Shown in pieces: positions 24,689 to 64,000 of a stretch of 64,000 nt of DNA. The notes beneath the pieces are model-generated. The model saw only the letters and a list, made by a program, of their open reading frames with translations. It ran no database searches and had not been told where the DNA came from. The DNA comes from Diplocarpon mali (taxonomy: Eukaryota > Ascomycota > Leotiomycetes > Helotiales > Drepanopezizaceae), in assembly GCA_024741835.1 (NCBI GenBank), contig JAENRP010000048.1:143730-207729 (forward strand), in the 5' to 3' direction. Within the stretch, counting starts at the first letter, position 1. Every line of letters begins with the position of its first letter. Both the position numbers and the translations under genes were made by a program.

Positions 24689-26002
24689 ATGCCACTTAGG
24701 AGAAGTGAAAGGTTAACCGCACCTCCACCGGGCCTCACTGCCACCAGTTCTACGGGCCTCACTGCCACCAGTTCCAGTTCTACGGGCCTCACTGCCAACC
24801 CCGGTCCTAGAGATATTCCCCCTCCTGAGGCCACTCAGGAAGCTACCTCCCCTAGTACAGATTTCACTCCCGGTCCCGGACCGCGAGTGGATTCTCGAAA
24901 TACCCCATTGCCGTCGATTGAAGTCAAGGAAGAACCGACGTCTACTCTCACTATGTCGGCCCCTCTCTTCTCAGCTGCCCAGCAGGCCGAAATCGCGAAC
25001 CTCGTCGGCGCTGCTATAGCTGCCGCTCTCCAAAACAATGCTGCCGCCCCTTCTTCCCCGAGTGCTAGCCCTTGGAACACTCGGTCCCTCACCGCCGACT
25101 TACTGCCTCCCCCAGACTACTACCTCCCGATCATCCGACCTTCAGTCCCAGCCGTCGACCCCCATCGGATCAAGTACCCTTAAACCCATTTCAGCAACCA
25201 CCAGGGCGAAATCACCTACAACGCCTGGAAGATGGCTATAAAGGTATTCATTCAAGAGTACTCAGGCAACTTCACTTCAGGAGAGGACCAGATCACTGCC
25301 TACTTCAAGTGTACGACAGGTGAAGCTCAGAACCTGATCCTACAACACATGGATCCCGTCTTTGCTAGTAAGTTCACGTGCGCTGCCGACGTCCTTAGGG
25401 TCTTGGATCAGAGGTTCTTTGACCACAACTATGTTCAGTCCGCCAAGCTCAAATACAGCAGGCTAACTATGGGTTCATTGTCATACAATGAGTTCCGATC
25501 CAAGTTCGTCACCCTTGCTATGGCTGGCAAGATCGATCAGTCTCGCTAGTTCGATGACGTCTGTGAAAAGGTCTCCCCGGCCTTGAAGAACGACCTTCGA
25601 GTAGAGAAGTACAAAATGAACAATGATTATACTACTCTAGATGAGTTCTTAGCTATTGCGGACCGCGAGGCCCGTAATATCAAGCAAGAAGAGGCCTATA
25701 ACGCTCGACGAGTTGCCCCCGCCGTCGCGTTCTCCCCCTCGAAGGACCGCGTCCCCGGCATACTGAAAAGGGAGTCATAGAGACCTACAGCCACAGCTAC
25801 CTCCCCAGCTCCCCGCACTCGTTCCCCCTCGCCAGCGGCCCACCGAGAAGGGTCTGCCAGCCCGAAGCCGGCGTCTAGTCTCTGCTACAACTGCGGGGCC
25901 CCTGGTCACTACGCGACGGACTGCCCGAAGCCAAAGAAGCAGGGCGAGTTTACGGTAGCTGAAGTTGAGATGGAAAACGACCCGCTGTCGGGAAACTGCT
26001 AA
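24689..26002 (+). pseudogene. gag: gag of element 1
   Basis: Retroviral-type capsid precursor of a Gypsy element. The N-terminus (from ATG 24689, MPLRRSERLTAPPPG) is Ser/Thr/Pro-rich with a repeated GLTATSSTG block. The capsid region runs from about 25230 (IQEYSGNFTSGEDQI and later FRSKFVTLAMAGK). A CCHC zinc knuckle, CYNCGAPGHYATDC, is at 25883-25924. In-frame stops at about 25181 (TAA), 25547 (TAG) and 25778 (TAG) interrupt it. One copy of the 23-bp palindrome is in frame at 24866-24888 (TPGPGPRV). Confidence 0.88.
24866..24888. repeat. 23-bp palindrome copy in gag of element 1
   Basis: ACTCCCGGTC / CCG / GACCGCGAGT, among the least mutated copies. Reads TPGPGPRV in the gag frame. Confidence 0.85.
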
Positions 26003-26640
26003 GCCGTGGCAAAGACTCCTACCATGGCATAGGTCACAATTTGTGGAAAGACTTAGATTTTGATTCCCGCCTATTAATAGGCGGCCGCCAGTTCTTGGTT
26101 CCTATAGAACTAGCTCGAAATGGATCATTTATCAAAACAGTTGCCCATATTGATGGCGGAGCTAATATTTTCGGTATTATCAAGACGTCTCTAGCATACC
26201 AGCTCTCCTAAAGACTCGGGGTGAAGTTCATTAAACTGCCTAAACCGATTACCCCCACTGGCTACAATGGTCTCGAGGGAGAAACCATTCGATTCGCCGT
26301 CTTACTCACCCTCACAATCGATAGGCGACGAATCAACTTCCCTTTCCTAATCACAAGTTTAGGAGCAACCGACGTTCTAATCGGCAGGAAGTTCCTAGAG
26401 CACTATGACCTCAAACAGTCCTACGGAAAAGGAAAAAACCGTATCTCCTGGCCCAAGGATATGCCTATCGTCCCCTACTTTGATCGACGCATACTAATCG
26501 ATCTCTCGCGGCCAACAAAACCCCTAATGGCCTAGCAAGACGTCGATCGTCGAGCAGCTATGATGGATGCCGAGGACGAAGACCTGAGAATAGCCCGAGC
26601 CCAGCTCTCGGTGCTAGCAAGCAATAACGACTCGAATCTT

Positions 26641-26708
26641 ACTCCCGGTCCCGGCCCGCGAGTGAAATCTGCGAACTCGAATCTCACTCCCGGTCCCGGC
26701 CCGCGAGT
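26641..26708. repeat. Two tandem 23-bp palindromes in pol of element 1
   Basis: Identical copies at 26641-26663 and 26686-26708, 45 bp apart (15 codons), each reading TPGPGPRV and followed by KSAN. A third partial ACTCCCG follows at about 26731. Confidence 0.88.
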
Positions 26709-28602
26709 GAAATCTGCGAATTCGATTCCCACTCCCGTGGCCTCTTGCAGACCTAGGGATAGCAGTTTCTTTAGAGACTTGAAAAGAGATCTGAACTGCA
26801 TGAAGAAGGCCTTGCTAGGAGTACTAGACCCCCCGCCCCCTCTCCTAGTGAAGAGAAACGCTCCTCTAAAGACGGCTTGCCAGATCAGCCTAATCTCAGC
26901 CTCAGCAATCGGCGCCCTCTACCACCGCTTTATGACTAGGGCAAGGCGAGCTATACAAACTCAGGAACCGGCGCCTAAAGAGTTCATATTCGTAAGCTCA
27001 GTTCACGACCTAGACCGAGAGATCAATCGCCGAGAATCGGCTAGGCAAGCTGAAATTAGCTCCCTTGGCCTTAGTTCGGCGCTGCAAGCCAAGTATAAGA
27101 GCAACGACGAGCTAATAGACCAGAAGCTCCCTCCTCAGTACGCTAAGTTCAAGAACGTCTTCAATCGCCAGGCCTCCGATCAGCTGCCGAAACCTAGGCC
27201 AGGAGTAGATCATAAAATCGAGCTGACAGGCGAGAACAACTTGACAATCGAGCCCCTCCGCCGCCTTACCGACGAACAGCTCTTAGAGGTCAAGAGCTAT
27301 ATTCTCAAGAACCTGCATAAAGGATTCATCGAAGCTTCGAGTTCCCCCTAGGCAGCCCCAATCCTCTTCGTTAGAAAAGCTGATGGCTCACTACGTCTAT
27401 GCGTCGATTACCGGAAACTAAACGCTCTAACGAAGAAAGACCCCTACCCGATTCCCTTTATCGATGAGATAATGGCACGCATATCGAAAGCTTGTGTTTT
27501 TACAAAAATCGATATATAACAAGCCTTCCACCGTATTCGCATGTCAGCTGACGCCGAGGACCTGACTACCTTTCGCACGCGTTACAGGACCTACAAATAC
27601 AAGGTTTTGCCATTCGGACTGACAAATGGGCCCGCCACCTTTCAAAGGTTCATCAACAATATTCTCCTTAAGCACCTCGACGATTTCTACTCTGCCTACC
27701 TAGATGATATTCTAATCTACTTAGAAAACTCCCTTGACTACGAGATCCACGTTAAGAAGATCTTAGGGATTCTCTAACGCCACGGCCTGCAAGCAGATAT
27801 TAAGAAAAGCGAGTTCGGGGTTACTAAGACTAGGTTCCTAGGGTTTATTATCGGAGTTCACGGAATTGAGGTAGACCTTGACAAGGTCTCAGTCATTTAG
27901 GAGTGGAAATACGCCGAGAATGTACGCGGCGTACAGAGCTTCCTAGGGTTCTATAACTTCTACCGAAGGTTTATTAAAGGCTATAGTCGTATCTGCCGAC
28001 CCTTGACAGCTCTTATAGGGAACGTTCCTTTTGATTTTAATAACGCTTGTAAAGAAGCTTAGGAAGCTCTGCGCTTGAGCCTCTAAACAACCCCGATCTT
28101 GTGCTACTATCACCCTCAGAAGCAGACAAGACTTGAGACCGACGCCTCCGACGGCGTAGTCGCCGGCGTACTCTCCTAACTCTAGGAAGACGATAACTAC
28201 CACCCAATCGGGTACTTCTCGAAGACGATAAATAACGCCGAGCTGAATTACCCCATTTACGATAAGGAGCTCCTAGCGATTTTTAGATCGTTCCACCAGT
28301 ATAAGGCAGAGCTACTCGGGGCCCAGAAAACAGTACACGTATATATAGATCATAAAGCCCTCGAGTACTTCATAACAACTAAGGACTTAATAGCCCGGCA
28401 GGCTCGCTAGGCGGAGTTCTTCGCTGATTTCAACTTCCTCATTATGTACCGAACAGGCACGACGAATACGCTGGCTGACACACTCTCCCGTCGAGACCAG
28501 GAGCTGACCCCTCTCGAGGCCAGAAAACGAGCTTTACGCCACCAGCAGCTCTTGCCCGACGATAAGCTCTCTACAAAAGTACTCGCCACTAGAGGCGATT
28601 CC

Positions 28603-28625
28603 ACTCGCGGGCCCGGCCCACAAGT
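28603..28625. repeat. 23-bp palindrome between RNase H and integrase of element 1
   Basis: ACTCGCGGGC / CCG / GCCCACAAGT. Reads TRGPGPQV in the pol frame, 654 codons after the copy at 26641. Confidence 0.85.
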
Positions 28626-30267
28626 GACGAGTGTGCCAATCGCGCCAATAGAGGCACCTGCCGACCTAACGTCAAGGGTCGAGTACGATATAGCGAGCTA
28701 CTACATTATCGACGAGGTCATTCAAGCTAATAAGACCTCCCCGGAGCTACAGAAGTTCCGAGACGAGGCGCAAAGCCACAGCCTCGACTATGAACTCAGC
28801 TAAGGCAAACTCTTCTTCCAAGGTAGACTCGTTGTGCCGTCACAACCTCCTGAACTACGAACAGCCCTGATTCGTCATGTGCACAAGCAACCTTGCGTCG
28901 CATACGCTGGAATCGGGAAAACAAGGCTTCTGGTAGGAAGAAAATACTACTGGAAAAGCCTTAGCAGCGACGTCGGCACTTATATCCAGAACTATCGTTA
29001 TTCGAGAATGAAAGCTCGTTGTGATAAGACCCCAGGTTTCCTACAACCCTTGCCAATTCCCGAACGAGCATACTAACACTTGACTATGGATTTCACGGAG
29101 CTCCCGCTTAACGAACTCGGCTACGACTTTACACTAGTGATAATAGACCGATTGTTAAAGAAGGCAGTATTAATCCCGTGCTATAAGACGGTAGATGCGA
29201 AAGGCCTTGCAAAGTTGTTCTTAATTCACTAGATACGCTATTTCGGCATGCCCGACTCGATTCTGTTAGATAGAGGCGCCCAATTCGTCTCTACCTTTTG
29301 GAAAGAGCTCTGTCGAATACTAGGTACAAAGGTCAAGCTAACTACAGCCTATAACCCTAACGTCGACGGCCAAACTGAGATCATGAACCAGTACTTAAAA
29401 CAACGCCTCAGGCCGTTCTGCTTATACTACTAAGACAATTGGAGTCGTCTCTTGCCTTTGATGGATATCGCCCAATTGACTTTGCCTTACGAATCGCTAG
29501 GGCAAATTTCCCCTTTCTAAGTGCTAAACGGCTACGAAGCTCGCTTCTCCTGGAATTTAATTAACCTAGAGCCTCTACGGACAGCAACCGAGAGATTAAA
29601 TCGTAAAACGGCACTGCGCATAGCTACTAGAGCTTAAAAAGTAGTCTAATTCGCTTAATCATCTCTACAAGTACAATAGGCTAAAATGAAACGGCTCGCA
29701 GATCTCCACCGCCGGCCAGTTGATTGGACTATAGGAGATGATATGCTAATTAGTACTAAAAACTGGAAACTGGACCGGCCGAGCCGAAAGCTCTCCGAAA
29801 AGTGGTACGGCCTAGTGAAAGTACTAGAAAAGCTAGGGGAAAGCTGGAAGCTACAATTGCCCGATTCGCTCCGTTCGATCTACCCTATTTTCCACTCCCA
29901 CTTACTGCATAAATACCTTCCTAACCTCCTATTAGGACAAGTTCAGGAACCTCCTGCCCTAATTAAAGTGCTACCAGAATAGGAGGAGTGGGAGATAGAA
30001 GAAATAATTGGCTCTTATATTCGAGCTAGGAAGCTCGAATATCAGATCAAGTGGAAAGGAGCTAATAAAGACCTCGAATGGTACCTGTACTCTAATACTA
30101 TAACAGCGCTATATGCTATTTGAGATTTCCATCTAAAAAACCCTCAAGCTAAGGGGCCACTAAGGGCGCTATCAAGCTGGCTTAGGTTATATAATAATGG
30201 AATTGACGATTATAGGGACTTAAAGGACAATACGCCTATAGATACAACTGCGCGGGCGCAGTTTTTC

Positions 30268-30282
30268 AAAGGGGGAGGGTAG
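30268..30282 (+). promoter_or_regulatory. Polypurine tract of element 1
   Basis: AAAGGGGGAGGGTAG directly abuts the 3' LTR, the usual plus-strand primer site of LTR retrotransposons. It also encodes the last residues and stop of pol. Confidence 0.85.
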
Positions 30283-30517
30283 TGTTACAGTCATATCACG
30301 TGTTGGTTAAGTACACAAAGTCAAGTGCCCGCTAAGGTAGCAAGGTAGCTGGGTTACGTGCACGCTAGTAAAGCACCTGTACTTATTCTGGAGGAGCTCT
30401 ACTAGAAACTCTCTCTTTTTCTTCATCTTTTCTTCTTTATTACATAGCGTACCTCTTGAGGTAATACAGTCAGCGTTCGTTCTCGACCCACTGTACGCTC
30501 CAGAGCAAGTCGTAACA
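30283..30517 (+). repeat. 3' LTR of element 1
   Basis: 235 bp, same length as the 5' LTR with ten substitutions and no indel. All ten are G:C in the 5' copy and A:T here. Confidence 0.93.
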
Positions 30518-40393: not shown

Positions 40394-40398
40394 CTATA
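40161..40398. repeat. Tandem array of the 23-bp palindrome (left part)
   Basis: Copies start at 40161, 40209, 40257, 40305, 40344 and 40392. The spacings of 48, 48, 48, 39 and 48 bp are all multiples of three. The last copy is cut after 7 bases by element 4. A frame is open right through the array on both strands. On the minus strand each unit reads like TLKLGLQMD within a 16-residue repeat. Most differences between units are C/T or A/G. Confidence 0.9.
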
Positions 40399-48204: not shown

Positions 48205-48227
48205 ACCCGTAGGCTAGGCTCACGAGT
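48205..48227. repeat. 23-bp palindrome in X2
   Basis: Minus strand reads TREPSLRV. 186 bp (62 codons) from the next copy. No counterpart seen in X1. Confidence 0.82.
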
Positions 48228-48390
48228 CAACTTCTTTACTACTAGTATTTTAAGTGTTTAAGGCATCTTTAAAGATAGTGAATCAAACTCGTTTAAGTCT
48301 AATAATTAGTAATCGCAATAGTCAGCTATTTAAGTTCTAGGTATTATAAGCACCTCTGGCTTAGGGATATCCTCTTTACGTAGTACTTCC

Positions 48391-48413
48391 ACCCTTAGGC
48401 CAGGCCTATAAGT
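48391..48413. repeat. 23-bp palindrome in X2
   Basis: Minus strand reads TYRPGLRV. Same relative place as the copy at 52310 in X1. Confidence 0.82.
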
Positions 48414-49301: not shown

Positions 49302-49860
49302 AATAAATTAGTCGGCAAGAGGGGTAGCTTTAAACGAAGAGATAATTATTTAAGAAAGATTAATAATATAAGAGGCCTATACTAGAAAAGATTGATAATA
49401 GAAAGATAATAGTAGTAGTGCTAGTATTATAGGTCTAGTAGGGTTATAGAGAAAGTAAAAAAGTAAAATCGTTATATAGAGAGAGGCTTATTTATAGAGT
49501 TTAGAATCGCGCTAGTGTATAAAGGAAAAGTAGGCATAATAAGCTTAGAAGTAGAAACAAAAGTAAGGTATGATATATATAAGGACCTATAATTAGTAAA
49601 TGATAATTCTTTAAAGGTAAGGATGATATTTCAAAGGTAAGCGTTAAAAAGTTGCATACAAAGGAAATAATCAAGGGGTAGATTATATAAAGAATAAAGT
49701 AGAGTAAAGAATATATATAGAATAGAATAATAAATAGAGAATAAAGAGGTATAGGTGTATAGAAAGTAGATAATCCTAAAAAAATTCAATATCTAATTCG
49801 CAATTTCTCCAAATGGTTTTCAAAGGGGAGGTAAACTATGATTCTTTAAATCGAATTGAC
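49302..49860. other. Spacer between X2 and X1 in element 5
   Basis: AT-rich and, on the plus strand, purine-rich (many AATAGAATAA-like words). No coding sequence seen. It may carry regulatory sequence for X2. Confidence 0.4.
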
Positions 49861-50038
49861 TCAATTGTCAGTTCTATTATCACTTCGGAGTCTTCTTCTC
49901 TTGCGTTAGTTCTTATTTCTTAGCGATTTCTTAGCTTTAGGGACCTCTTTTAAAGGATCTTCTATTAGTACCCCTAGATTTGGTGACTAAGGTTCATCCG
50001 AACCTTCTTATAGGCTTAAGCTAGCCGAGTCTAACCTT

Positions 50039-50061
50039 ACTCGCGGGCTAGGCTCGCGAGT
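50039..50061. repeat. 23-bp palindrome near the X1 C-terminus
   Basis: ACTCGCGGGC / TAG / GCTCGCGAGT, the copy closest to a perfect inverted repeat. Minus strand reads TREPSPRV. Confidence 0.88.
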
Positions 50062-50923
50062 CAGTCTTAGCGTTTCTAAACTTAAGGGTAAAAACAAGGG
50101 ATTAGTTCCCAAATCAGGGTCTAATATTATGCTAGCGTCTCGGTTCGTCTCTTTTCCGAATTTTCTTATAATAATGCTTTTATTAATTAGTGCATTAGGC
50201 TCTCGGATAGCATTTACTTTATCGCATTATCCCTAAGACTTAAGTCTATAAAGAAGCGACTTAGTATTTATAACGTTCGTCTAGGCCTTAATAAGGGTAT
50301 TAAAGAGCTTTTGATTATATTTTATAAGGTGGATTTTCAATTCGTCTTTATTAAAAAGAAATAACTCTTGTACTTCGATTATAACCGATAGATCTATTTA
50401 AGAGCGTTGACTAATAATGGCTTTAAAGAGGCTGCTGCAGTTCTTAAGATGAAAAGCTGCCTTAAAAGGTGTAGTAGTCTTACTTATATTAATCTATTAA
50501 GGTACTAGAGGTTGCTTTAAAGCAAAGACTGAAAAGATAAGGTCGGAGATTCGAGTCTTATTTTCTAAGGTATTCTTATCGCAAATAGCCGTATAGTTAT
50601 TACAAAAGGCTATAAAACTACTAGTCCTATAAGGATTATCCGAAAGCATTTTAAGAAGGTGTCCCTATTTTATTATCATTATAATTAGATTGCTATTATT
50701 AATAATAGGTCGCAAAATCTCCTTTCGCTTCAATTTTACGGTTATTCAAGCTAGTTGAGATTTTAAACTAAGTGCCTAGGAAGTCTATCAACTTATCTTC
50801 TTCGCAGATAGAGTGAGTTTCACATTTGATTAAGAGCTAACCTATCTATTAAGGCTTCTAGAAGCTGGCCCTTATCTGATTAGTAGGATCTAATAATCTA
50901 AGACTTGCTTTCTAATAAAATTG

Positions 50924-50946
50924 ACTTATAGGCCAGGACTGCAAGT
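50924..50946. repeat. 23-bp palindrome in X1
   Basis: Minus strand reads TCSPGL, stop (TAA), V. 885 bp (295 codons) from the copy at 50039. Confidence 0.8.
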
Positions 50947-52309
50947 GAAAATCGGAATTTCTTTATTAGTAGCACTTGTATCTCTCTTTATCGAAACGAC
51001 TTGATTATAAAGACTAAGGCCAATCAATTAGGGGGGTTCGGGGTAGGCTATAAGCTAATAGGTTCCTTTACTTCTTACTATTATAACTGAGAGGTAGAGT
51101 CTATAGTGTATTCGAAGGACTTATTAAGTAAGATTGAATATTATATTATAAAGAAAATAAAAAGGTATAGAGGTTGCGCTATCCATAGGGCAGAAGTAAT
51201 AAAGATATATCTCTACTTCTTATCTTATAATAAAGAGGAATATACTTATAAAAGTACTATTATTAGTAGTAAAATTGTCGGTTAGGAAGCAGCATCTGAA
51301 GGGTTTAGGCATCATAATTGACCCTTCTTCCTCTATTTCCTCCTGCTATTTATTATTTAGTAATATCGATAAGAAGGAATTGTCCTATTCAATCGGCTCT
51401 AACGCCTTTAAAGCTTCGGAATCAGCCCTGAATTTTGCAGCACCTAGAGATGCCTCTATTATTAATAGGTTGGATTTGCGTATCCTTAAAGAGACGAAGA
51501 ATTAATTATCAAAGTGGATTAGAAAAAGATCGATATCTTCTACTATATAGAGAAGTTTAAGGTGTTTAATGATTTTGTTAATATCAAATCCTTTATAATT
51601 AAAACTATAGTAAACCGAAAGAGAGCGAATATAAAGGTCGTAAAGTCTTTTTCCTTTGATTCCTATACTAAGAAGATACTGTCGAAAGCGAGTTTTCATT
51701 GCAGAGGACACTTGAATGTTATATCATTCTTTAAGTTTAAGGTTAAGAATGACCGATTGAGGTATATTACTATAATTATAAATGTCTTAATTAATAGATT
51801 CCTCTTTGCGTTCTCTTTCTTATAAGATAAAATAGTCCCGCTTAGCATCTAAGAGACTAGGTTTTTAACTTTTGCAATTATTAAAGAATTGAATAATATC
51901 CGTAAGGGCAAACTTATCTAGGATAAGCTATTGAATTTGTTTAATAGCTCTCTTAGTTGTCTTTAAAGTAAGAGGAATAGGATCTTCCCTTATATTATCG
52001 TTTCCAAATCAGTTATATATAAATATAAAGAAGTTAAGAACTAGCTCCTTTAAGTTGTTAAAGAAGGAGTTTAAGCAAGCGCGCAATCCTTTAATTTTAA
52101 ATTGCAAATTAGCTAAAGTAGCTATCGAACGATCTATCCTTTTTAAAGGTTAAGCTAAAATTGGTCGTTTAGCTAAAGGAGAGTCCTTTAAAGATTCCGA
52201 AAATTCTAAAGAAGCTGCGCTAAGCGTTTGAGCAGTCTGTTCGGCAGCGGTTTCTAGAATCATTTCGGCAAGAGGCAGGTTAAGTCTAGTTTTAAAATTC
52301 TCGTTTCTA

Positions 52310-52332
52310 ACTCTTAGTCTAGGACCGCGAGT
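52310..52332. repeat. 23-bp palindrome in X1
   Basis: Minus strand reads TRGPRLRV, preceded by YDL. 462 codons from the copy at 50924. Confidence 0.85.
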
Positions 52333-53573
52333 CAAATCATATAGTTTAGCGCTTATTGTATCTTTAAGCTAAAAGGCGAATTTCAAGGCAGGCTTGACTA
52401 TAAATAACTAATTCTCTTCTTTATTATTAAAGAAATCTTATTTAAACTTTGGTATAGGAGTCCAGTTTTCTTTTAAAATAAGTAACCTATAAGTAAAAGC
52501 GCAGAGCCTTAGCATATTGATAATAGTACTATTAGGTAGGGTAATATCTACAGCCTAATTTGATCTTTTTATAGCTTTATCAGCTGCTATAAGTACTGCA
52601 TTAGATAGGCTTACAAATCTGCGACTGCGAATTCGATTGCTTTAGAATTTTGCTACTCCTTCTTAAATGATAAAGAAATTGAGAATTTGAATAGCTCTAG
52701 CTATAGGAGTATTTTCCTTAAGAATTTTTAATAACACTCGCCTTCTATTATTAGAATCAATATTTATTAGAAAATATAAATAAAATAGGAGTCCTCTCTT
52801 ATTAGTGGCTAAATTATCCAGTTGTCAAATAGATTCTTCCCTTTTATCTTGGTCCGTTTTGAAAGTGTCGGCCAAAGTTATGTATTAATCTGCGTCAGCT
52901 AAGAATTCCTCTTTAGAGATTCCCTTCAGTCTTAATTCTTCGGTTAAGAAGTCGTCAAATTAGAGAATTCTAAAGGCCACCTAGGTTAAAAGGTTGCTAA
53001 TGGCATTCGCATAAGCTAAAAGGAGTTTTTATTACTCTATATCTCCTAAGGCTGCATAGGTCGATTTAAAGCTCTCTAATGATATAATAGCTCTACTATC
53101 CCAAGAGAAGTTTATAACTAATGCTTGTTTATCCCTTATCGCAGTAGATAAAACCATTTATAAGTTCTTTAAAGGCATATTACTTATAAAAGATAGGGAG
53201 TATAAATAAGAGAGTTCAATAGGGTATAAGAATTAAAAGGGCATATAAGCTGCAATAGGTTTGCTATATATATATTAAGGAAATTGGACTTTTTTATTTA
53301 TTATTTAAAGAAAGTAATAGGAATGTTATAATTAAAGGCTAATATCAAGAATGCAAAATAAGTCAGAGTAGGCAAGAATTTAAAGTGATCTTAAAAGATC
53401 TATATCTTAAATAATAAAGGAGGCGACCTTGCTTAAAATGTAAAAATAAGGATTAGAGGAAGGTAAGATAATTGATAGGCTAGGAAATCGTTTAGTATTC
53501 CTACTTGCATTCTTCGGATATTTTAGGAATAATAACTTAGGGTTGCGATTAATTAGGTATTTTAATATTCTTT

Positions 53574-53596
53574 ACCTATAGGACTGGCTTACGGGT
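53574..53596. repeat. 23-bp palindrome at the end of element 5 pol
   Basis: Minus strand reads TRKPVL, stop (TAA), V in the pol frame, 1134 codons from the copy at 56976. Confidence 0.8.
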
Positions 53597-55008
53597 CAAA
53601 TTGGAAAAATCTTAGTCTTTATCTAAGGGTTTAAAATTACTTATATTGCTGTTAGTTCCTATAAAAGATTCGGAGGTTGTATCAATTTCTGATTCGTCTT
53701 TTAAAGGGAATAAGGTCTAGTCGCATTAATAAAAGCGCTTCAGTCGGTTAGCTGCAAAGGTTCCTTTAATATCGACTCTATTAAGTTCCTAAAGAGAATA
53801 GTATCCCTTTTCTTCCTACTTAGACTTAACCTTAAATAGATTAAGCTATTAATAGTCAAGTTTAGTATCTATAGATATATTAATACTTCTTATAATATTA
53901 TAGACTAGGATAAGATCATCTTTTTAAATAGGGTGCGTTTTAAGTACTTTAGAAGCAGCCTACGCTTCCTTAGCTTTTTCCTAATATTATTTCTTTTGCA
54001 AAATGATTTCCTCTATATCTATATCTTAAAGCTTAAGTTGTTAGCATCTTATTATAAGTAAATCGAAACAGTTCCGAATTTGACTATAGTCGAATAATCT
54101 TTAAATAGGCTATCGGGATTCAAGAGGGAGCTGTGCCTCTTTGCTATAGACAAGGAAGAATAGTGTAACTCTAGTCGGTTTATAGATTATCGTTCGATAA
54201 GTAAAGAGTATTCTATAAAAGCGTTTTATCTAATCTTTAAATCCTTTGTAAGTAACTTTAGATAGATTATTAAGAATGTTATAGTGTCCTTGTTCTACTA
54301 CTCTATTAGCTTTCGAGTTATACGCTAAGATTTGAACCCATTTAATACCATATTTTCGTAAGAAAGCTTCAACTACTCCTTTGTTTTTAAAGCCTTTATT
54401 AATAGTTAATTTGCTAAAAAGTCTATAGCAATAGACTACGTCTTTCTAAAGGAACTTTGCAATAGATTTAGAGTTAGCAGATCTTAAAGGTCGTCCTTTA
54501 AGCCATCTTAATAGGTCTTCCTTTACTAGAATAAAATATATTATCCTATTCTTAGTAATTAGTACTTATATAATATTAAGGCTGACTTTATAAAAAAGGC
54601 CTGATGGCTAGGTTAGGAATAAGGGATTTTCCTTATGATCAGGTTTTCGTTTCTAATAGGGGATGCAACTCTTTATAAAAGCTTTGCAATCCTTAAAAGA
54701 GCCTTTCTAAAAGAATTTTCTTAAGAGTTAGTGGTAAGTGGACTTAGCTCTTTAGTAATCAGTTTCCTTATAAATATCCTAGATAGCCTTAGCCCTTAGT
54801 TTTTCATTATCTAAGCAGAGTTGTATAAGGAATAAGTTATCGCTCCTTTTAAATAATCGTCTTCCTTATATTAGATAAATTAAAGCTTTAGCTTTAAATT
54901 TCTGAAAATCCTTAAGAGCAACCGTCTTTAGTCGTTTAAGCGTAATTAAAAACTTTGCAATTTCTTCAAAGTTACCTAAGTAGTTAGGTAATAAAATTCT
55001 CTCATTTG

Positions 55009-55031
55009 ACTCGCGGGCCGGGCTCGCAAGT
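55009..55031. repeat. 23-bp palindrome in element 5 pol, unusual frame
   Basis: ACTCGCGGGC / CGG / GCTCGCAAGT. The pol frame here reads QLASPARES, so the unit is not in the common codon phase. Confidence 0.82.
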
Positions 55032-56975
55032 TGAGTCCCTTTAAGGCGATATATTAATAGATAACTAACTTCGTTTTCTACCTACTTATCAATATCTATT
55101 TCATCTTCTTTAATCAAATCAAAGGGGTAGGGCCGAGTTCTTTTTAAAAAGCCGTCTGCAGCGGTGTTTTTCGTTCCTAGAATATGTTTGACTTCAAAGT
55201 CCATTAGTCTTATTTAAGTAATCCATTTCGTTAGCAAGGCTTTAGGTAGGTCGCTTGCAACTCTATTCAATTATTCTATTAGCACTTTAGCATCAGTTTT
55301 AAGGATGAAGTAAGTGCTATAGAGGTCGCTTCTCATCTTTTTTATTACTTTTAAGGCTCCTTTGCATTCCTATTTAATAGTATTATACTTTATCTCTGCT
55401 AGATTCCAAAGACTACTTTCAAAGCGAGCTAGATGTCTTTTCTATTAGCTATTAGCTTATTAAAGGACGGCACCCTATCCGATTAAGCTTATATCAACTG
55501 TTAGTATTATTAGCCTAGCGTCGGCTCTATAGTCTATTTTAATCAGATATAGCGCTTTAAGCAACGCTTGCTTTAATTGTTTTATAGCCTCCATTTAAGG
55601 TTCCTCCTATTAAAACTCAGCCCCTTTCTAAAATAAGGCGTAAATAGGCGCTGCCTTTTTAGCGAAATCCTTAATCCAAATGCGATAGTATACTATAACG
55701 CCAATAAACGCGCGAGCTTCTGCCATATTATTATACCTCTTCCATTTGTCGATTTTGAGTACTTTAGCCCTCTAAGGACTTCGGCTATTAGAATTAGTAA
55801 TAAAACTAACAATTTCCATTAATAGAAGATAGTATTATAACTTTAGACTAACTATTGCTCTTACCCTTTCGAATCGTATAAGTACTTAGTCTAGGTTCTA
55901 AATGTATTCTATTATAAATTGTTGTATACTAAAAAGAACTTCTTTATAATTATAGAATGATCTTGATCCTTTTACTCTTATATTATCTATATAAGGGAGC
56001 GCAATATTAAGTATATAATCTACTAGTATCTTATAGATTACTTAGATAAATTAAGCGATCGAATTTATAGCCCCTTAAGGTAATCTTATTATTTGAAGTA
56101 GCTTAAGAGGGGTTTGAATTGCTATTATATCTCTCGATTTAACGTTAAGAATGAATTAGTTGTATTTAAAGAAGAAGTTAATAAGAGAGCTGTAGGTTAA
56201 TCCTGCGAATTTATTTAAGAACTTATCCATATTCGGAGGAACGTTAGCGTCCTTAATAGTTACTCAGTTCATCTCTACTACTACTATTATTAGTCTATAA
56301 GTTCCCTTCTCTTTCTTAGTAACTAAGAACTATTTATTTCTATAAGGGCTATTATAGAACTCGAGAACTCCTTGCTTCAGCTTATCCTTTAATATTTCAA
56401 TTACCTTTTCTTAAAGAGCTTTAAGGACCCCGAATGTTTTCTCTTACTAAGCTTTATAGGGTATTGTTTTAATCTTAATATAAGGCGTGACCTCTTTTCG
56501 AATCTGGCTAAGTTCCGTTTAGTCAAAAGCTAAGGCGTCCTCTTGATTTATTAAGGTTTTATAAAGTAGTTTGCATTCTTATTCTATTAAGTCATCTCTA
56601 ATTTTTAGCATATTAAAACGTTCTTTTATTAGCCGATATCCGATAGGTTTATTAGAAAATCTGCCTATAATAAACTTATTGAATTTGCTACCTAGCTTTA
56701 GAGGTCGAAGCTTCTTATCTTATTCAAACTAATCGTCTAGTCCTCTAGGCTTTGAGCCGTTAGAGATTCCCTAATCTATTAGTTATACTTTGTCGGCCTT
56801 GCTTTTATATATAGTTCGAATATTAGCTGGTACTATACTTCTCTACTTCTTTCCTTTTTTATTAAATCCTATAAAATAGTCCGAATTTTCCTTTTTAAAA
56901 ATAAATAAAAGATTTTCTAAGTTATTAATTTAAAGTGCGTAAATAGAAATGTTATTGGTAATTTTATTATTTTTC

Positions 56976-57160
56976 ACTCGCAGGTCTAGCTTATAAGTAG
57001 TTTTTAGGTTTTTCAAAATGATTGGTGAATTATCGAAATTTATAAAACGAACTCTCTTTTCCACTTTATTTTTCTTTTTTCTTAATTATTAAGCTGATAA
57101 AACGCTGATTATACCATTTTTTAAAATTCCAGATTTGACTCCTAGTCTAGGACTATAAAT
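56976..57160. repeat. Two 23-bp palindromes around the PR-RT linker of element 5
   Basis: Copies at 56976-56998 (reads TYKLDLRV) and 57138-57160 (reads IYSPRLGV), 162 bp or 54 codons apart. Confidence 0.8.
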
Positions 57161-59053
57161 CAAATCGCTATTATTCAAAATCGGCAAACTCACCTTTCTT
57201 TTACTATAACTCCTCGCTAGGTGCCTTCCTTTACTAGTATTAAGCCTAGCCCTTATACTAGCTAATCGTTTCTTAAAACCTTATTCTAGAATTCGGCTAT
57301 ATCTCTTGCGATAACCATTTATCCTTTTAAGGATCGATCTATATTCTAAAGGCTAGCTTTTATAAGCCTATCTCTAAGATAGTTAAATGTTAGCTAAGAT
57401 TCTAAAATAAAAGGCATTTTTAAAAGAATATTATTTAAGGAATTCTCTATTATTAGAAAGTCAATATAATTAACAATTCCTCTGACTCTAACCTTTACAT
57501 TTTTCACCTATCTATTAAAATTGTATTTTAATCCAGAGACAGTTAAATAAATAAGGAGTCGATTGCTAACAATTATTAATTGAGCCATTTCCGCCACTTT
57601 TCTAGTTATTGCATTAACTTTTGAACCATAATCAATTAAAGTCTTTACTTTAACTGATTCTTTTATAAAATAAATAACAATAGGGCTTTTTATCGCAATT
57701 GCTAAACAATTTCAATTGATATTCTGAGATATTAAAGCTATTGCTATAATATCGTAGTACCTTTAGGTTCCTTTATCTTTTGCAATCTAAAGACATTTGA
57801 TTAAGGCTAGGTGCTTCTTAAAGTTCTTTTGTATTACAATTTCTATTTCCTTATTATTATTCAAATCTTTAAAGGCAATTGGGATATGCTTTCCTAGTAC
57901 TTTATCAAAGCGTCCAATTAAACTAAATAGGTCTTTAAATATAAGGTTAATTTACTAGGCTATGACATTCTCTATAGCTTTCTCTATTGCAGTTAAACTA
58001 GCGTATTTATTGACGAATTTCTCCTGTTTTAATATCTGTCTCTTTTACTTAAGGTTAAGGGTTTGCGCAATAACTTTAACTTCTTAATCTTTAAGCTTAA
58101 AGCCATCTTTGTCTATTATATCTCTAATTAATTCGTCTACTATATCGGCTTTATCCTCGTCCACTATAGTTTTAGATTATTAGGTGTCTTTTAGCGTTTG
58201 GACTCTATATTAAGATTCCTGAGTTGCATACGCTAATTTCTGGACTTTGGCTGGTTTTATTAGTATTAGTGGAGTAGAAGATCTAGAAGGACGCTAAGAA
58301 TTCCAAGGGTTCTTAAATATAAAAGTAGCATTAATATCAGCTGAAATATTATTATTAACCTATCCTAAGATAAAGATACCTCTAACTTCTATAGCTATTT
58401 AATTAGAAGCTAGGTCCTTAAGAACTCCCTTAGGTAGATTGCTAATTAGACCTATATATATATAAGTTGGAATTTTAGCATTTATATTTATAATACGCTA
58501 TTGTTCGACCAAATTCTCGTCTTATTTCATATTATATATTATCGTTTGAACAGTCTATAACTATAAGTGATTCTAGTGCTTTTTAATAGGGATAGCTTCT
58601 GGCCTAGGATCCTTAATGTAAAGTATCCTATACTTATTAATATGTATAATCCTAGTGTTAATAAAACGAAGGAAAAGAGGGCAATTGTTATAATACTTAT
58701 ATAAAGCGTAGTTAGGTTCTTTATTATTGCAAAAGTTGCAGGTTAGTCGTCTTCTATTGCTATTCCCTTAGTACCTTATAGTATTAATATTGGCAGAGTG
58801 CTAGTTAGGATTAATTTCTCCTTCTTTAGTCAACTGTTGAGTTCTTATATTAGTAGGTTGTTCTAAATGATAAGAAGTAGGAGTCTGGTAATAGGAATTA
58901 CTATATTAGCTTATAGTAGCTGAGTTTTGCCTATTACTAAATTAGGGAATATGCTGTTTTTCTTATAAAAGATTATTAATTCTAGTTTCCAAGCTTTAGA
59001 TTCAGAGTTCTATAAATTAGGTCTTAAGTTCTTTAATTCTAAGGTTGGATTTC

Positions 59054-59076
59054 ACTCCTAGGTCGGGCTCGCAAGT
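59054..59076. repeat. 23-bp palindrome in element 5 gag
   Basis: Flanked by TTTC and GAAA, extending the inverted symmetry. Minus strand reads TCEPDLGV, followed by KS. Confidence 0.85.
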
Positions 59077-60062
59077 GAAAGGTATAACTACTAGGTTCTT
59101 CTTTGCCTCCTCTATGACTTTTAAAGCCTTTGAGTGTTCTTGGACTAGGCTCTTAAGGTCTTTAGTATAAGAGGGAGTAAGGGCTTTTTCCTACTCTATA
59201 GTATTAATAGTTCTCTTATTAAGATCTGATTTTAAAGCAAAGGCTGCGAATTCCTTAAATGAGGCGAAGGTTATAAGGTCTTGCTTATCAATCCTAAAAT
59301 GCTTGATAATCTTGTTTCGGAGTTTAGTAGGTAATCTGAGTAAGAAAAGGCGGCCTCTTTCAACTTCGCTAAGTATTTTCTAGCTGATTAAGGTGTTTGA
59401 TATATAAGTAAAAGTCCAATAGTAGTTCTTAAGTTCCTTAAGAGTATAAGTGACTAGAACAAATTCCTTTAAGAAAGCTAAGGTATTGCGAATCTGCTAT
59501 CTGTCAAATTTGCGAAATTCAGATTTAAGGGCCTTGATAAGGAGTTCCTATAAACTATAAGTTTTCCATTTAAAGAGGGACTTAATAATATCCTTACTTA
59601 TATAATCACAGTAGCAAGGAAGTCGAGAAATCATATCCTCTTGTATAATATTAAAATCGTAATAAGTTTCCTTATATTGCTTAAGGAAATTAGTAATATT
59701 AGCGCTTATGAAGTAAGGAGCGCCAGGGGAACTAGGAAGGGGAAAGTGATTGGTAATAGCCTTAAATGCGGCTATTATCGTTTTATACTAACCGTCTGAG
59801 TTGATAGAATCTATAGGGGGTAAAGGGGAAGCTTTAATATTGCGAGATTGATTGCTAGGAGGAGTACTTCGAAATTCAAAAGGGCTTAAAGAACGTTCAG
59901 AATCCGAGTTAATCTTAAAGTGACTAAGACGAGTTTGAAAAGATTTAGATAAAGGGTTAGTGAAAAGTTTAAAATTATTATTATTTTTAGTGTTTTCTAG
60001 TATTAATATTGAAAAAGTAGATAGCAGTCCTAAGTTATTTAAAGACGTCTTTTTATCCTCTT

Positions 60063-60085
60063 ACTTATAGGCTAGGCTTAAGAGT
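60063..60085. repeat. 23-bp palindrome upstream in element 5 gag region
   Basis: ACTTATAGGC / TAG / GCTTAAGAGT. Minus strand reads TLKPSL, stop (TAA), V. Confidence 0.8.
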
Positions 60086-60761
60086 GGAATTCCGGATTCC
60101 GCTAAAAGTTTAATCCGAGTTTGCTAAGAGATTTTAAGTAGGTACTAAACAGCTAATAGGAGCGTCGCAACTAATCGCAATAAGATAAGGTTTACCTAAT
60201 TAAGGACTAATTTCCAAGATAAGGTTTATATTTAAGATTCTTCTTAGCCTCTAAGCCAATTCCTATTAGTCCTTAGAATAAAGGGGTCTTTAAAGACGAT
60301 TCTAAGGCAATTTTTAGAGTTCTATCGAGCCGAGGCGGCTGAATTATCGGATTCGGATTTCTAAAGATTCTAAAGAGGTACTTCTAGTTGGAGTTTGCGC
60401 TTAGTATTACTCGAGTACTCGAAACTACTGCTATTTGAGATTACTATTATAAGGTTCGCTAAACTTTTCATACTAGAAAGCCGAAAATTCCGAAAATCTT
60501 AAAGTTAAGGAAGAAAATAGGGGTTTTTAAAGCAGAGCCGAAAAGGGAAAATCTAAGGTTATTAATAGTTGCTAAACGAAAATCGACAGTTCCAAGTAAC
60601 TAAGCGATTAAGGATAAGGGTTTTAAAGTCGATCAAAATGCTATAAGTGTTTTAAAGACGTATTCTTTAAAAGGCTAGTCTCTTATCTGCAAACTAAGAG
60701 ATTGATAAAATCGTATAAGGACGGAAATCTTAAGAAATCGGTCCTTGCGTAGGTCACTAAT

Positions 60762-61005
60762 ATAAAACTGAGGGGAGATAATATAAGAATAGGCCTAAGG
60801 GAAGACCTAAAAACAAGAGGAGGAAGCACTATAAGCGGGCTCTCTTAGATAAGATATTAGGAATAAGTCCTAAATATAGAGTATATTTAATACTATAGTA
60901 ACACGCGCTATCTCTATATACAGAAGATGGCCCTTTTATCCTCCTGCCGTCCTGCGCCGATCATATGATATATATCATAAGACCTATCTATCTCAGGTCT
61001 CCATA
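60762..61005 (-). repeat. 5' LTR of element 5
   Basis: 244 bp, the right-hand LTR. The internal sequence that follows it in element sense (60761 leftwards) begins ATTAGTGACC, a possible tRNA primer site whose TGG has become TAG. That reading is weak. Confidence 0.88.
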
Positions 61006-61010
61006 GCATT

Positions 61011-63411
61011 AGTACTAATTTTATAAATAGGAACTGCAGCTTTAGGGCATTTGCAAATAGGGTCAGATTATAGTTGATTTATATTAGACTGTTTTCCTAA
61101 ATCTAGCTTAATCATAGGCAGGGGCGCTGGCCTAGTAATAGTAATAGGGATCTCGCGCTTAGCTAAAGCTATTAAATTAATATAGGACTGTCTTCTATTG
61201 ATCTATTGAGCTTCGTCTATAGCTATTTCTCATTCTTTGCGATTGATATTAGCTTAATAATTGGATCGGATCCAAAGTCCTTTAAAAGGGGGAAGACGAA
61301 TAACAATTTCCTTTGCGAATTAAGGAGATAAGGGATAATACAAAGGCTATAAGAATCGGTTTTCCTTTAGGTTAAGTTTGAGTTAGAATCGGCGTATCTA
61401 TTTGACTTTAATAATAGTATCGCGCTAGCTAAGGTCGAGAATAACCTAAGGGCAGTTGTAAATACGCCTTCTATCAATTGTTAAGTAAAAGCGTATATAG
61501 TGCATAGCTTGCGCGCAAATAGTATTTTAAAATCTATAAATAGGAATAAGGGCTGGAAGAGGAAGAATTTTAAAGCTAATTGCTCTTAAAAGATATATAG
61601 AAAGGGAACGATTTAAAAACAGGTAATTAAGGGCTTTAGTATCTGCTAAAGCTAATAATGATACTCTAAGTCCATTTATACTAATAGTATAAGAGGTTAG
61701 AAATTGCTTCCCTCTTATTAAAGAGTTAAGATCTAGCTTTAATAAGTTGCACTTTCGCAAGCCTAAGTAGGAGTCTTTTCCTAGGCCTCTTTGTTTTCCT
61801 AATCTTCCTCTATTTTAACCCTATTCTTAGTTAAGTCCAAAGTCGGATTAGCTTCCTTTATATCTTTTAAGGCATTAATCTTACCTATAGAAGGGCACTT
61901 GGTCTTATAGTAACTAGTTTTACCATAGGTCTAGTAGGTAGCTTGCTTAAAGGGTAAAGTAAGAGAATTAGCCTTAGCTAGCGTATCTTAGCGAAAAGGG
62001 GTAGTCGGCTTTAGGGCTAGTATCCCAGAAGCTCAGGTAGTACTTCCAGCGCTTGGACCGCGAGCGGTCTTATTAAAGAGCGAACCGGATATCTTCTAAT
62101 ATAATACTAAGGTCGCTTTGCTTCTAGTCGAAGGGTTAAGAAGTTGGTTACTTCGGCGTTCAGTATCAAAGGCATTCAATTAGTTAACTATAATAGTATA
62201 GTCCTTCCCTTAGGAGGCCTTAGCTAAAGCGCAAGCAGATCTAAGCTAAGGGGTAATCTTATTCTATATAAAGAAGAACTACTTAGATCTTAAGACCTCT
62301 CCTTAGATTATAGCAGATTAGAATCGGGCTTGAAACTAAGGAAAAGTTTCTTTAGAATAACCGGCTTCTCTTATATAGAGGTAGTAGAAAGTAGATTGGA
62401 ATAGGTCTACCTCTTAGCTAGTTAAAAAGTAACTACTTAGCAGTTCTACTATTTTTTAACAGTTTCGAAAGGGGTTAGTCTCTAAGAGGTACTAAGGTTT
62501 GAGGTACATTTAAGCTTATCCTATAGTAGATCCCTAAATAAGGGCTTAGCGAGCTCGCTCATTCGGGTATAGGTCGGCGTTAACTTACAATCGGTCTCGG
62601 ACTAAAGCTAACTATTGCTTATATATTAAAGAGGTTCTATTATTAAAGGGGGTGATCTTTTCAATTAGCTGAATTTTTAGCCATTTTATATCTATATCAA
62701 CTTCTAAAGGAGGCTAAGTCTTACTTTATTAAAGGTAGGTGGATTCTCGCTCAATAGTCTAATATACGCGCTAAGCCGTTTCTTAACTTTGATAAGCTAG
62801 GGTCTTTAGGCTAAAGATAGCCTAGGCAATCCTGCTAATCTCGCTTTGCAATTGTCGATTAGATTAATCTTAGCATTATAAGGATTCCTTTAAACCTAAG
62901 ACTATTCCTTATAAGACGTTCGGGTTCGAAAAGTCTTATTTATCTTAGTTGGCTCGGCTATAGCATTATAGTCTCTTGCCCTTAGCAGTAGAGGAAGGTC
63001 CAGCCCTAAGGGCTAGGGTAAGGGTACTTCCTATAGAAGCTGGTTTCTTAAATAAACTAGGTATATTCTGTATCTGCTGACTTCTGGCTAGTAGGGAATT
63101 CATTTTACCGATTTTAGTTTTAGTAGTAATTCGGTTAAAAAGGGGTTCTATAGAAAAAGGGTTTTAATAGCGTAGTGCTCTCTTAACTTCTGCCTATAGC
63201 GCTTTTACAAAAGGAGTAGTTAAGAAAATCCGGCTAATAAAAGCGTTCTTCGATTATACTAGTTAATAAGCTATACTCAAGCTCCCAGTTTGTCTAAGAG
63301 ATCTCTAGGATCCTGACTCTATCGAAAGTTGAAATAATCGCAAATCGATTTTTCAAAAGGGTAAGATATTATTAAAAGCTGTCCTTAGTAAAGAAGAACT
63401 TCTTCGTTTAA
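61011..63411 (-). pseudogene. gag: gag and protease part of element 4
   Basis: Minus strand from the 5' LTR. A zinc knuckle is recognisable near 61935-61880, but its first two cysteine positions read Tyr (TYGKTSYYKTKCP), as expected from TGC to TAC. A protease-like stretch with LLALADTKALNYLF is within 61760-61527. The coding region then runs into the element 5 insertion at 61010. Many stops elsewhere. Confidence 0.7.
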
Positions 63412-63718
63412 TATAATAATACAGAACCGCCAAAGTGCAAGATTAAGTATAGAAGTAAGAAGTGGTATAAAAGGCGTATTCTATAGGTCTAATACAAAGG
63501 AAACGAAGAAGTTAGAGAACCCTCCTTAGGAGAGAGCCCTTCTTCCTTATATACATAGTAGTTAAGAGCTCTATTGCCCGCTTATATAATATTATATAAG
63601 AATATCCTTTTATACCTTTAGGGTCGATTCGAGAAAACCCTATATCGAATCGAGATTGTAAAACCTTAGAACGCCGTACTCCCAGGTAATTGCACTAAGT
63701 GGAGGTGCAGCCGTTATA
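63412..63718 (-). repeat. 5' LTR of element 4
   Basis: 307 bp. The left terminus reads TATAAT where the other LTR has TGTAAC, and the right terminus GTTATA, all by transitions. Followed by CTATA, the target duplication. Confidence 0.9.
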
Positions 63719-63723
63719 CTATA

Positions 63724-64000
63724 GTCCTGGCTTAAGAGTCATTTTCACGAATTTTACTTATAATCCTAGCTTAAGAGTCTATCTATTCTCCTTATCCTCG
63801 CTTAATTATATTAAGGCAAAGAGTGCACTTTCTTTAAAGGAACCTACTTATAAGTCTAGCCTAAGAGTCAATTTTTATAATATCACTTTTAAGATAATAT
63901 AAAGTCTATCTTTAATTTTAACTTTAAAGATCACTTTATAATTATTATTTATAAACTATATAAATTAATTATTAAAAACTCTTATATAATTTAACTTTAT
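63724..64000 (-). mobile_element. Copia-like element 3, right part
   Basis: Continuation of the sequence left of 40394. The first 16 bases complete the palindrome copy begun at 40392-40398, and two more copies follow at 63756-63778 and 63846-63868, spaced 39 and 90 bp in the rejoined sequence. The last 100 bases are AT-rich with no readable domain. The element runs out of the window. Confidence 0.7.

Follow-up and report, generated by a model that had tools for sequence, protein, structure and literature searches.

A 23-bp palindromic unit is dispersed through unrelated LTR retrotransposons in the window, the 64,000-nucleotide stretch of DNA analyzed here. The unit is probably, if by a modest measure, a micro-palindromic insertion module that depends on the retrotransposon cycle for its spread, and its sites presumably arose by insertion rather than by independent selection. 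Its thousands of copies were dispersed by hitch-hiking on retrotransposons. Short, putatively mobile palindromic repeats are already known from organelles and bacteria. A search of the open-licence literature on palindromes and repeats gave no described fungal unit of this kind, as an earlier reading of the sequence alone had supposed, and no report of a short nuclear palindrome that occurs exclusively in LTR retrotransposons, of both Gypsy and Copia type, and is accepted within their polyproteins. Should its spread indeed be linked to the retrotransposon cycle, the unit would mark the exchange of genetic material among unrelated retroelements and would show, as a natural experiment, which gag-pol sites accept inserts. 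The thousands of decayed copies constitute a record of repeat-targeted mutation.

The unit and its carriers in the window

The sequence-only reading had listed 28 copies of the unit, and every listed start does carry a 23-bp unit, 27 of them whole and one split (Table 1). The counts of 4 in Gypsy element 1 (E1), 10 in Copia element 3 (E3) and 14 in Gypsy element 5 (E5) agree with that reading. In a forward scan of the window with a scoring matrix built from the listed units themselves, and circular by construction, the 27 whole units scored 18.9 to 31.5 bits. The highest score outside them, 16.9 bits at 63717, belonged to the right-hand part of the split unit, and 20 order-3 Markov shuffles of positions 22851 to 64000 peaked at 15.9 bits. 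The rest of the window, including the host genes that had been described as free of units, never scored above 12.4 bits, and no LTR of E1, of E5 or of the unit-free Gypsy contains a unit. The 28 copies fall into about 19 sites, and non-adjacent sites are without flank similarity beyond the shell described below, which bears out the claim that unrelated elements share a discrete unit. Two observations had been named as arguing against such a unit, namely similar 23-mers in shuffled sequence of the window's composition and strictly homologous positions in all elements. Neither was found, since the shuffles were free of units and unit positions differ between elements.

Table 1. Retrotransposon features and palindromic units in the window
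Feature	Positions	Strand	Details
Gypsy element 1 (E1)	23482..30517	+	LTRs 23482-23716 and 30283-30517; 4 units
Unit, E1 gag N-terminus	24866..24888	+	phase 0, TDFTPGPGPRVDSR
Unit, E1 protease-RT linker, first of 45-bp tandem pair	26641..26663	+	phase 0
Unit, E1 protease-RT linker, second of 45-bp pair	26686..26708	+	
Unit, E1 RNaseH-integrase linker	28603..28625	+	phase 0, GDSTRGPGPQVTS
Unit, Copia E3 3'UTR, past apparent pol stop	36963..36985	.	
Unit, Copia E3 3'UTR, past apparent pol stop	37027..37049	.	64 bp from 36963 neighbour
RVT_2 domain of Copia E3	37856..38521	-	Pfam PF07727, E=1.6e-23
Unit, Copia E3 array	40161..40183	.	minus-strand reading phase 0 by fewest stops
Unit, Copia E3 array	40209..40231	.	
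Unit, Copia E3 array	40257..40279	.	
Unit, Copia E3 array	40305..40327	.	
Unit, Copia E3 array	40344..40366	.	
Left part of split unit, Copia E3 array	40392..40398	.	LTR-element insertion, duplication CTATA
Unit-free Gypsy inserted into unit	40399..63718	-	RVT_1 ~44446-44916, PF00078, E=1.2e-23
Right part of split unit	63724..63739	.	
Unit, Copia E3 array continued	63756..63778	.	
Unit, Copia E3 array continued	63846..63868	.	
Gypsy element 5 (E5)	45288..61005	-	LTRs 45288-45532 and 60761-61005; 14 units
Unit, E5, ~200 bp from 3' LTR	45733..45755	.	site also filled in diverged relative
Unit, E5	46153..46175	.	
Unit, E5	46975..46997	.	
Unit, E5	48205..48227	.	
Unit, E5	48391..48413	.	
Unit, E5	50039..50061	.	
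Unit, E5	50924..50946	.	filled in 16/16 covering loci
Unit, E5	52310..52332	.	
Unit, E5	53574..53596	.	11/11 covering loci by alignment (10 above score threshold)
Unit, E5 RNaseH-integrase linker	55009..55031	.	minus-strand coding, phase 1 (LASPARE)
Unit, E5	56976..56998	.	
Unit, E5	57138..57160	.	
Unit, E5	59054..59076	.	L064 has similar region with unit
Unit, E5	60063..60085	.	diverged locus L081 filled at same site

The consensus of the unit is the palindrome ACTCGCGGGCC-N-GGCCCGCGAGT, 23 bp in length and containing a CGG-N7-CCG core. The arms described by the sequence-only reading are palindromic around the centre, but the symmetry is wider than 23 bp and the central part is a single N rather than three bases. 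Symmetry runs about 6 bp outward, the fuller module being a 35- to 37-bp palindrome, RATTY-N-[23]-N-RAATY, and an RRAWTY stretch flanks the palindrome on both sides. Flank position -2 is a pyrimidine in all 38 symmetrised flanks; in a larger set it is a pyrimidine in 38/40, with a purine at +2 in 40/40. All six reading frames of the module are open, and an asymmetric form of the unit was found in both orientations. In the DNA that was read, lone half-arms scored at chance level only and a long parent element with the unit arms left no sign; no parent element or enzyme for the unit was found.

The LTR pair of E1 is 96% identical, its gag and pol frames could be read, and the element is 95% identical to the Diplocarpon coronariae protein P0134. 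In its protease-RT linker a third tandem copy, lacking 15 bp, comes after the 26686 unit. E3 and the third Gypsy of the window lie on the minus strand, and the units of the E3 array are spaced 39 to 48 bp apart. The splitting of one array unit, also proposed from the sequence alone, is confirmed by its junctions: ACCTATA at 40392 abuts the LTR start TGTAACG, and on the other side CTATA, the 5-bp target duplication, is followed by GTCCTGGCTTAAGAGT at 63724. The outer ends of the inserted unit-free Gypsy were placed by this duplication; its LTR pair aligns at 40410-40708 and 63423-63721 (89%), and the element is itself interrupted by E5. The RNaseH (~55594-55220) and integrase H2C2 (~54805-54641, below Pfam's cut-off) of E5 share one frame on either side of the 55009 unit, and E5 downstream of the integrase gave no Pfam match. 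A unit that seemed to lie inside an LTR, with L068 and L069 taken as two LTRs, was placed just inside the 3' LTR by alignment to E5 and is homologous to the 45733 unit.

Abundance and occupancy of sites across the genome

The whole-genome search that the sequence-only reading had proposed returned thousands of matches. In the 49.4-Mb genome, a degenerate unit pattern gave 7,650 forward matches versus 1 in the reversed control and 7,640 reverse-strand matches versus 0, and two strict patterns (≤3 mismatches) gave 858 and 1,010 strand matches versus 1 and 0, strand matches not being equal to sites as a palindromic site may match on both strands. Every locus read around the units was an LTR element or a diverged relative of one. 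The carriers in this fungus, very probably Diplocarpon coronariae, comprise two Gypsy lineages and two Copia groups, with about 23 separate unit positions; a third Copia group was discarded because L099 joins L063/L071 (gag-protease), L083 and L061-L084 (3' end) in one Copia. Units occur on contigs of up to 560 kb and in the window alongside host genes and nested LTR elements, and we infer that the unit-bearing contigs are nuclear.

In one of the Copia groups, Copia-A, units lie in phase 0 in the gag-protease and IN-RT linkers and also beyond the pol stop, in the 3'UTR; the 3' LTR stretch that was read has no unit. The IN-RT linker is filled in Copia-A and empty in E3. One Copia-A unit has the arrangement TGATTTT-unit-TGATTTT next to related tandem monomers, and a gain of 23+7=30 bp would preserve the reading frame. 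This direct repeat, together with the RRAWTY stretches on both sides of the palindrome, is what an ordinary DNA-level mobile micro-element might leave, a MITE-like sequence inserting anywhere and purged from genes by selection. Such an origin is highly improbable. In D. coronariae, repeats account for about 34% of the genome (PMC11527701); with random insertion and unbiased detection, all ~23 sites would fall in LTR elements with a chance of about 0.34^23. Among the matches listed, no unit lay in ~0.97 Mb between element clusters of C1 and C3 or on C2, the empty stretches including C1:3708-292108, C1:292132-394936, C1:444591-506724 and C3 before 466051, and the DNA read held no longer relative of the unit.

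As had been suggested, orthologous element copies were compared for sites with and without the unit. Loci L001-L030 and L061-L080 were picked by unit sequence, which makes finding that unit in them uninformative, and L031-L060 were picked by 621 bp of E1; the informative counts are therefore those of L031-L060 and of the other units in the unit-picked loci, with L041 left out of the E1 columns because it maps to another part. The E1 gag unit (24866) was present in 29/29 aligned E1 copies and, in another comparison, in 28/28 covering loci, the 26641 unit was filled in 30/30 loci, and a further site aligned across copies was likewise filled in 30/30 covering loci. Matches to the joined flanks of Copia-A were filled in all 13 fetched loci. 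Across five E1/E5 sites and Copia-A, every aligned copy was filled, with only tandem number differing, and no DNA-level empty site or insertion junction pair was found among these copies. One apparently absent unit at 53574 was a decayed unit, hence no empty site, and the shorter Copia-A matches that resembled empty sites lack a spacer monomer and retain the unit. The abundance of the unit is the result of carrier retrotransposition and of 45- to 65-bp tandem duplication. Of the earlier idea of a mobile or amplified unit, amplification with the carriers stands, but autonomous present-day movement is not supported, since the aligned positions are all filled.

Possible peptide and nucleic acid signals

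The sequence-only reading had regarded the unit as an in-frame peptide insert and had asked for a count of codon phase. Phase 0 prevails, in the E1 gag, protease-RT and RNaseH-integrase sites and the Copia-A linkers, yet 55009 is in phase 1 and the 3'UTR units lie beyond the pol stop, those at 36963 and 37027 beyond the apparent one of E3. By fewest stops, the E5 units are in phase 0 in 11/14, phase 1 in 3/14 and phase 2 in 0/14. The phase-0 bias is strong overall, but the unit does not keep a single reading frame wherever it occurs, and an in-frame peptide is not supported as its defining property.

A selected peptide motif, T-[PR]-G-P-G-P-R-V, serving at polyprotein junctions as linker, processing site or docking peptide and having palindromic codons by chance, would accommodate this bias at E5, at three E1 sites, in both Copia-A linkers and in the E3 array. 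It would also fit the many sites at gag/PR/RT/IN boundaries, the occurrence of the peptide in the homologues P0135 and P0142, and transversions at unit positions 9, 12 and 15, which are synonymous in phase 0. We nevertheless regard it as quite unlikely, given the phase-1 unit between RNaseH and integrase of E5, the units beyond pol stops in both Copia groups, and the transversions at positions 5 and 19, which alter the peptide. Moreover, 60063 and L081 differ at positions 9 and 15, and there the frame with the fewest stops is phase 1; most homologous polyproteins are without the peptide.

Of 148 protein hits, 120 homologues were listed, and all 70 that spanned the E1 RNaseH-integrase linker lacked the unit peptide, as did 14/14 other aligned homologues at the E1 protease-RT site. 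P0142 has TREPGPRV elsewhere in the protease-RT linker than the E1 unit; P0135 has a weaker TREPVPPV near the P0142 position and TREPGARV in the RNaseH-integrase linker, within a few residues of the E1 peptide, and this last may be the same site. The module is apparently also present in related elements from other sources, P0135 and P0142 being known here as protein sequence alone. With peptide forms set after P0142 was seen, the phase-0 peptide (≤1 mismatch) occurred 5 times in the 148 proteins, 3 of them in the Diplocarpon protein, versus a shuffle mean of 0.0, and the phase-1 and phase-2 peptides occurred 6 and 2 times versus 1.85 and 1.0. E1, E5 and P0135 all have a unit or its peptide in the RNaseH-integrase linker, which counts against differing positions.

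The unit might instead be a selected cis-acting DNA or RNA signal of this fungus's retrotransposons, such as a protein binding site, an RNA dimerisation or packaging hairpin or a 3'-end signal, shared via convergence or recombination. Consistent with this, the CGG-N7-CCG core recalls the multi-copy palindromic boxes of plant Sireviruses (PMC2829016), the consensus RNA hairpin has an energy of -19 kcal/mol, and units lie near the 3' end of E5 and a relative and, little decayed in copies picked by unit sequence, near that of Copia-A. Between diverged relatives, units had fewer transversions than flanks (5/92 versus 224/1647, p=0.025, the comparisons not being independent), which hints at function. 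However, no co-variation was seen at the stem positions 5/19 and 9/15, positions 5/19 are neither Watson-Crick nor G-U in 178/245 unit copies, and one natural form has hardly any tendency to fold (-6.4, z -0.28). The LTRs seen also lack units; these lie dispersed over coding regions, as many as 14 in one element, and the other Gypsy in the window is unit-free. On balance, a cis-acting signal seems rather unlikely.

Possible route of spread and comparison with known systems

An insertion module tied to retrotransposons might, more tentatively, be inserted during reverse transcription. Template switching between RNAs in one particle would transfer it, and the palindrome hairpin and an RRAWTY-like stretch could guide the jump. 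By such a route only retrotransposons would carry the unit, unrelated families would share it and either orientation would occur; as an insertion at most other places destroys the element, units would be found preferentially in linkers and 3'UTRs. The unit-free LTRs are not predicted by template switching alone. It is conceivable, though doubtful, that the unit is a parasite of parasites, a gene-less palindromic module that multiplies between unrelated LTR retrotransposons via template switching in mixed particles, is open in six frames, never enters host DNA alone and is common to retrotransposons of several fungi. Six-frame openness, if kept, would allow such a module to sit inside gag-pol genes.

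Rickettsia palindromic elements are palindromic repeats read in frame in protein genes; they are bacterial, lie in host genes and measure ~100-150 bp. The unit resembles them where it lies in frame within E1 gag and the protease-RT, RNaseH-integrase and Copia-A linkers, but it has 23 bp (35-37 with its shell), is fungal, and occupies retrotransposon genes and also UTRs.

Yeast mitochondrial GC clusters (e.g. GC42), Neurospora mitochondrial PstI palindromes and Podospora MUSE1 are very short, have many dispersed copies and have been proposed to be mobile, and the GC clusters and PstI repeats are GC-rich and palindromic (PMC4478555, PMC7218506). As these sources describe them, the unit shares their very short length and many dispersed copies, but they are mitochondrial, whereas the unit is seemingly nuclear, was seen only in LTR retrotransposons and is often coding. 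GC42 shows presence/absence polymorphism, whereas no empty/filled DNA pair was found for the unit. For a target-site duplication as in GC clusters, the TGATTTT repeat of Copia-A is a candidate, and permutation gave no significant site-specific signal (best z 2.3, 250 settings).

The RM boxes of plant Sirevirus Copia elements are palindromic with CGG..CCG symmetry, reach 32 copies in an element, are located in LTRs and close to env, and differ in sequence between most elements (PMC2829016). As a multi-copy CGG-CCG palindrome in an LTR retrotransposon, with 14 copies in E5, the unit is similar to the boxes described there. Unlike them, it leaves the LTRs seen empty, has one sequence in both Gypsy and Copia elements, and interrupts gag/pol linkers.

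The palindromic unit in the window and the genome

Each of the 28 places at which the sequence-only reading had put a 23-bp palindromic unit was found to hold one, and a scan with a scoring matrix derived from the units themselves detected no further copies in the window. The 27 whole units scored 18.9 to 31.5 bits; the top-scoring unlisted stretch was half of the split unit (16.9 bits), the remainder of the window reached at most 12.4 bits, and 20 order-3 Markov shuffles reached at most 15.9 bits. The split unit starts at 40392 in the array of Copia element 3 (E3) and resumes at 63724, after a 23-kb LTR insertion; the inserted element, a unit-free Gypsy, sits within the unit at 40398/63719 and is flanked by a 5-bp duplication, CTATA.

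The unit has a perfectly palindromic consensus, ACTCGCGGGCC-N-GGCCCGCGAGT, with no stop across the six frames. Units have decayed mainly by C-to-T and G-to-A changes, and the differences among 29 copies of Gypsy element 1 (E1) follow a RIP-like pattern, with a mean minor transversion frequency per column of 0.9% versus 10% for all differences. A symmetric shell, RATTY-N..N-RAATY, is kept around the unit whatever the codon phase, position -2 being a pyrimidine in 38/38 cases (38/40 in a wider set). A search for co-variation preserving the stem found none.

In the 49.4-Mb genome (676 contigs) in which the window lies, two strict patterns with up to three mismatches gave 858 and 1,010 matches, strands counted separately (controls, 1 and 0), and a transition-tolerant pattern gave 7,650 forward and 7,640 reverse matches (controls, 1 and 0). 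Among the transition-tolerant matches listed with positions (about 100, apparently in contig order, C1 and then C3:466051), clusters corresponded, by spacing or fetched sequence, to copies of Gypsy element 5 (E5), E1 and Copia; C1:292109 (locus L081) lay in a diverged E5 relative, and none fell in about 0.5 Mb of C1 between clusters, in all of C2 or in 0.47 Mb of C3. In the loci read, the units occur in retrotransposons, a statement that applies to those loci and not genome-wide.

Carrier elements

Elements compared for the presence of the unit
Element	Location	Strand	Type	Units
E1	window	plus	Gypsy	4, in gag, PR-RT and RNaseH-IN
E5	window	minus	Gypsy	14
E3	window	minus	Copia	10; unit array, and two units past the apparent pol stop
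Other Gypsy	40399..63718	minus	Gypsy	0
Copia-A	outside window; 3.7-kb stretch L099		second Copia	five in L099
Diverged E5-related family	L064, L068, L072, L074, L076, L078-L080			at the site matching E5 45733 (L064 and others)

One E1 piece showed 98% identity over 36% of the query to a protein named Diplocarpon coronariae, and a longer piece showed 95% identity to a protein so named across the whole searched part, which makes D. coronariae very probably the host. In L099, one unit lies ahead of the protease-like Pol_BBD domain, three stand in the stretch from the SH3-like domain to RVT_2, and the last lies in the 3'UTR, the RNase H end being identified by eye; the first and the 3'UTR unit of Copia-A were also seen at separate loci. 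The 3'UTR unit is preceded by tandem TGATTTTn-GCACTTCTATTAAGGGG monomers, one or two of which stand before the unit near the 3' LTR in L061-L098, an arrangement that recalls the multiple polypurine tracts found in Sireviruses. About 20 bp 3' of this unit, the 17-bp near-palindromic stretch CCTACTCTAGAGTAGAG is a second, polymorphic micro-palindrome, present in 5 of the 10 copies compared (L061, L062, L065-L067, L070, L073, L075, L077 and L002) and in 0/13 further Copia-A loci.

Regions 13 kb apart in E5 are only about 0.5 kb apart in L064, with units retained, a spacing that suggests a short derivative without most of the coding sequence. Downstream of the E5 integrase, about 7.5 kb of the minus strand (45600-53500) has few stops in one phase around most units and looks as if coding, which is long for a Gypsy; Pfam returned no match for this region even at E<=1. 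A 13-bp tandem repeat array (21370-21876) sits at the margin of the block of host genes and directly precedes the first element.

Fixed positions, filled sites and empty sites

Non-adjacent window sites showed no flank similarity at E<=0.001, and the flank matches that did appear came from overlapping windows or array neighbours. About 19 sites were counted in the window, with about four more outside. Covering loci were filled at 24866 (28/28), at 26641 and 26686 (30/30), at 50924 (16/16) and at 53574 (11/11, ten above the score threshold and the eleventh a decayed unit). Tandem number varies, in steps of 45 bp (E1), 48/39 bp (E3) and 54 bp (Copia-A gag-protease); in the E1 protease-RT array, the third repeat (26714-26745) lacks 15 bp inside the palindrome, and 8/30 copies have a full unit there. 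Since, in the copies aligned, positions are fixed within families and only tandem number varies, the thousands of copies are mostly carried copies from a few tens of events.

The empty sites sought by comparing element copies did not appear at the DNA level among the copies aligned. The unit peptide is missing in 70/70 homologues spanning the RNaseH-IN linker and, at the E1 protease-RT site, in 14/14 other homologues aligned. Two homologous Gypsy proteins, read here as protein sequence, have a unit-like peptide: P0142 has TREPGPRV elsewhere within the protease-RT linker, and P0135 has a weaker TREPVPPV near that place. P0135 also carries TREPGARV in the RNaseH-IN linker, a few residues from the E1 peptide and, for that reason, possibly at the same site. 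Within the genome itself, Copia-A carries units in its IN-RT linker and E3 has none in its own.

Peptide reading, proposed insertion route and known repeats

In phase 0 the unit translates as T-[P/R]-G-P-G-P-R-V. Positions 9, 12 and 15 vary by transversions that are synonymous in this phase, which favours a peptide; positions 5 and 19 also vary, non-synonymously. The proposal of an in-frame peptide stood in part: by fewest stops, 11 of the 14 E5 units read in phase 0 (3/14 in phase 1, 0/14 in phase 2), but the unit at 55009, between RNaseH and integrase, reads in phase 1, and the Copia 3'UTR units are located after the pol stop. An asymmetric form of the unit was found in both orientations. 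The Rickettsia palindromic elements offer an analogy to the unit.

Insertion during the retrotransposon cycle is a better fit than transposition as DNA into the genome at large, because in the loci read the unit lies only in LTR elements, in unrelated families and in either orientation, flanked on each side by short similar sequence; a proposed route is template switching during reverse transcription. Under DNA transposition, about 23 random events would all have fallen within repeats, whose share in D. coronariae is put at about 34% of the genome (PMC11527701); the resulting probability, near 0.34^23, is a rough figure that ignores selection and assumes that species and unbiased detection. 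TGATTTT on both sides of the Copia-A unit is the only suggestive target duplication, and a 7-bp duplication would give 30 bp, in frame; a general test for target duplication was negative.

The nearest known systems are the GC clusters of mitochondria, together with other short fungal repeats (PMC4478555; PMC7218506), and, in plant Sireviruses, palindromic boxes (PMC2829016). As these are described in the passages cited, the unit differs from them in location, polymorphism and placement; we regard it as a candidate mobile element. Between diverged relatives, transversions were less frequent in units than in flanks (5/92 versus 224/1647; Fisher p 0.025, the pairs being non-independent), which leaves room for a selected signal in the unit.
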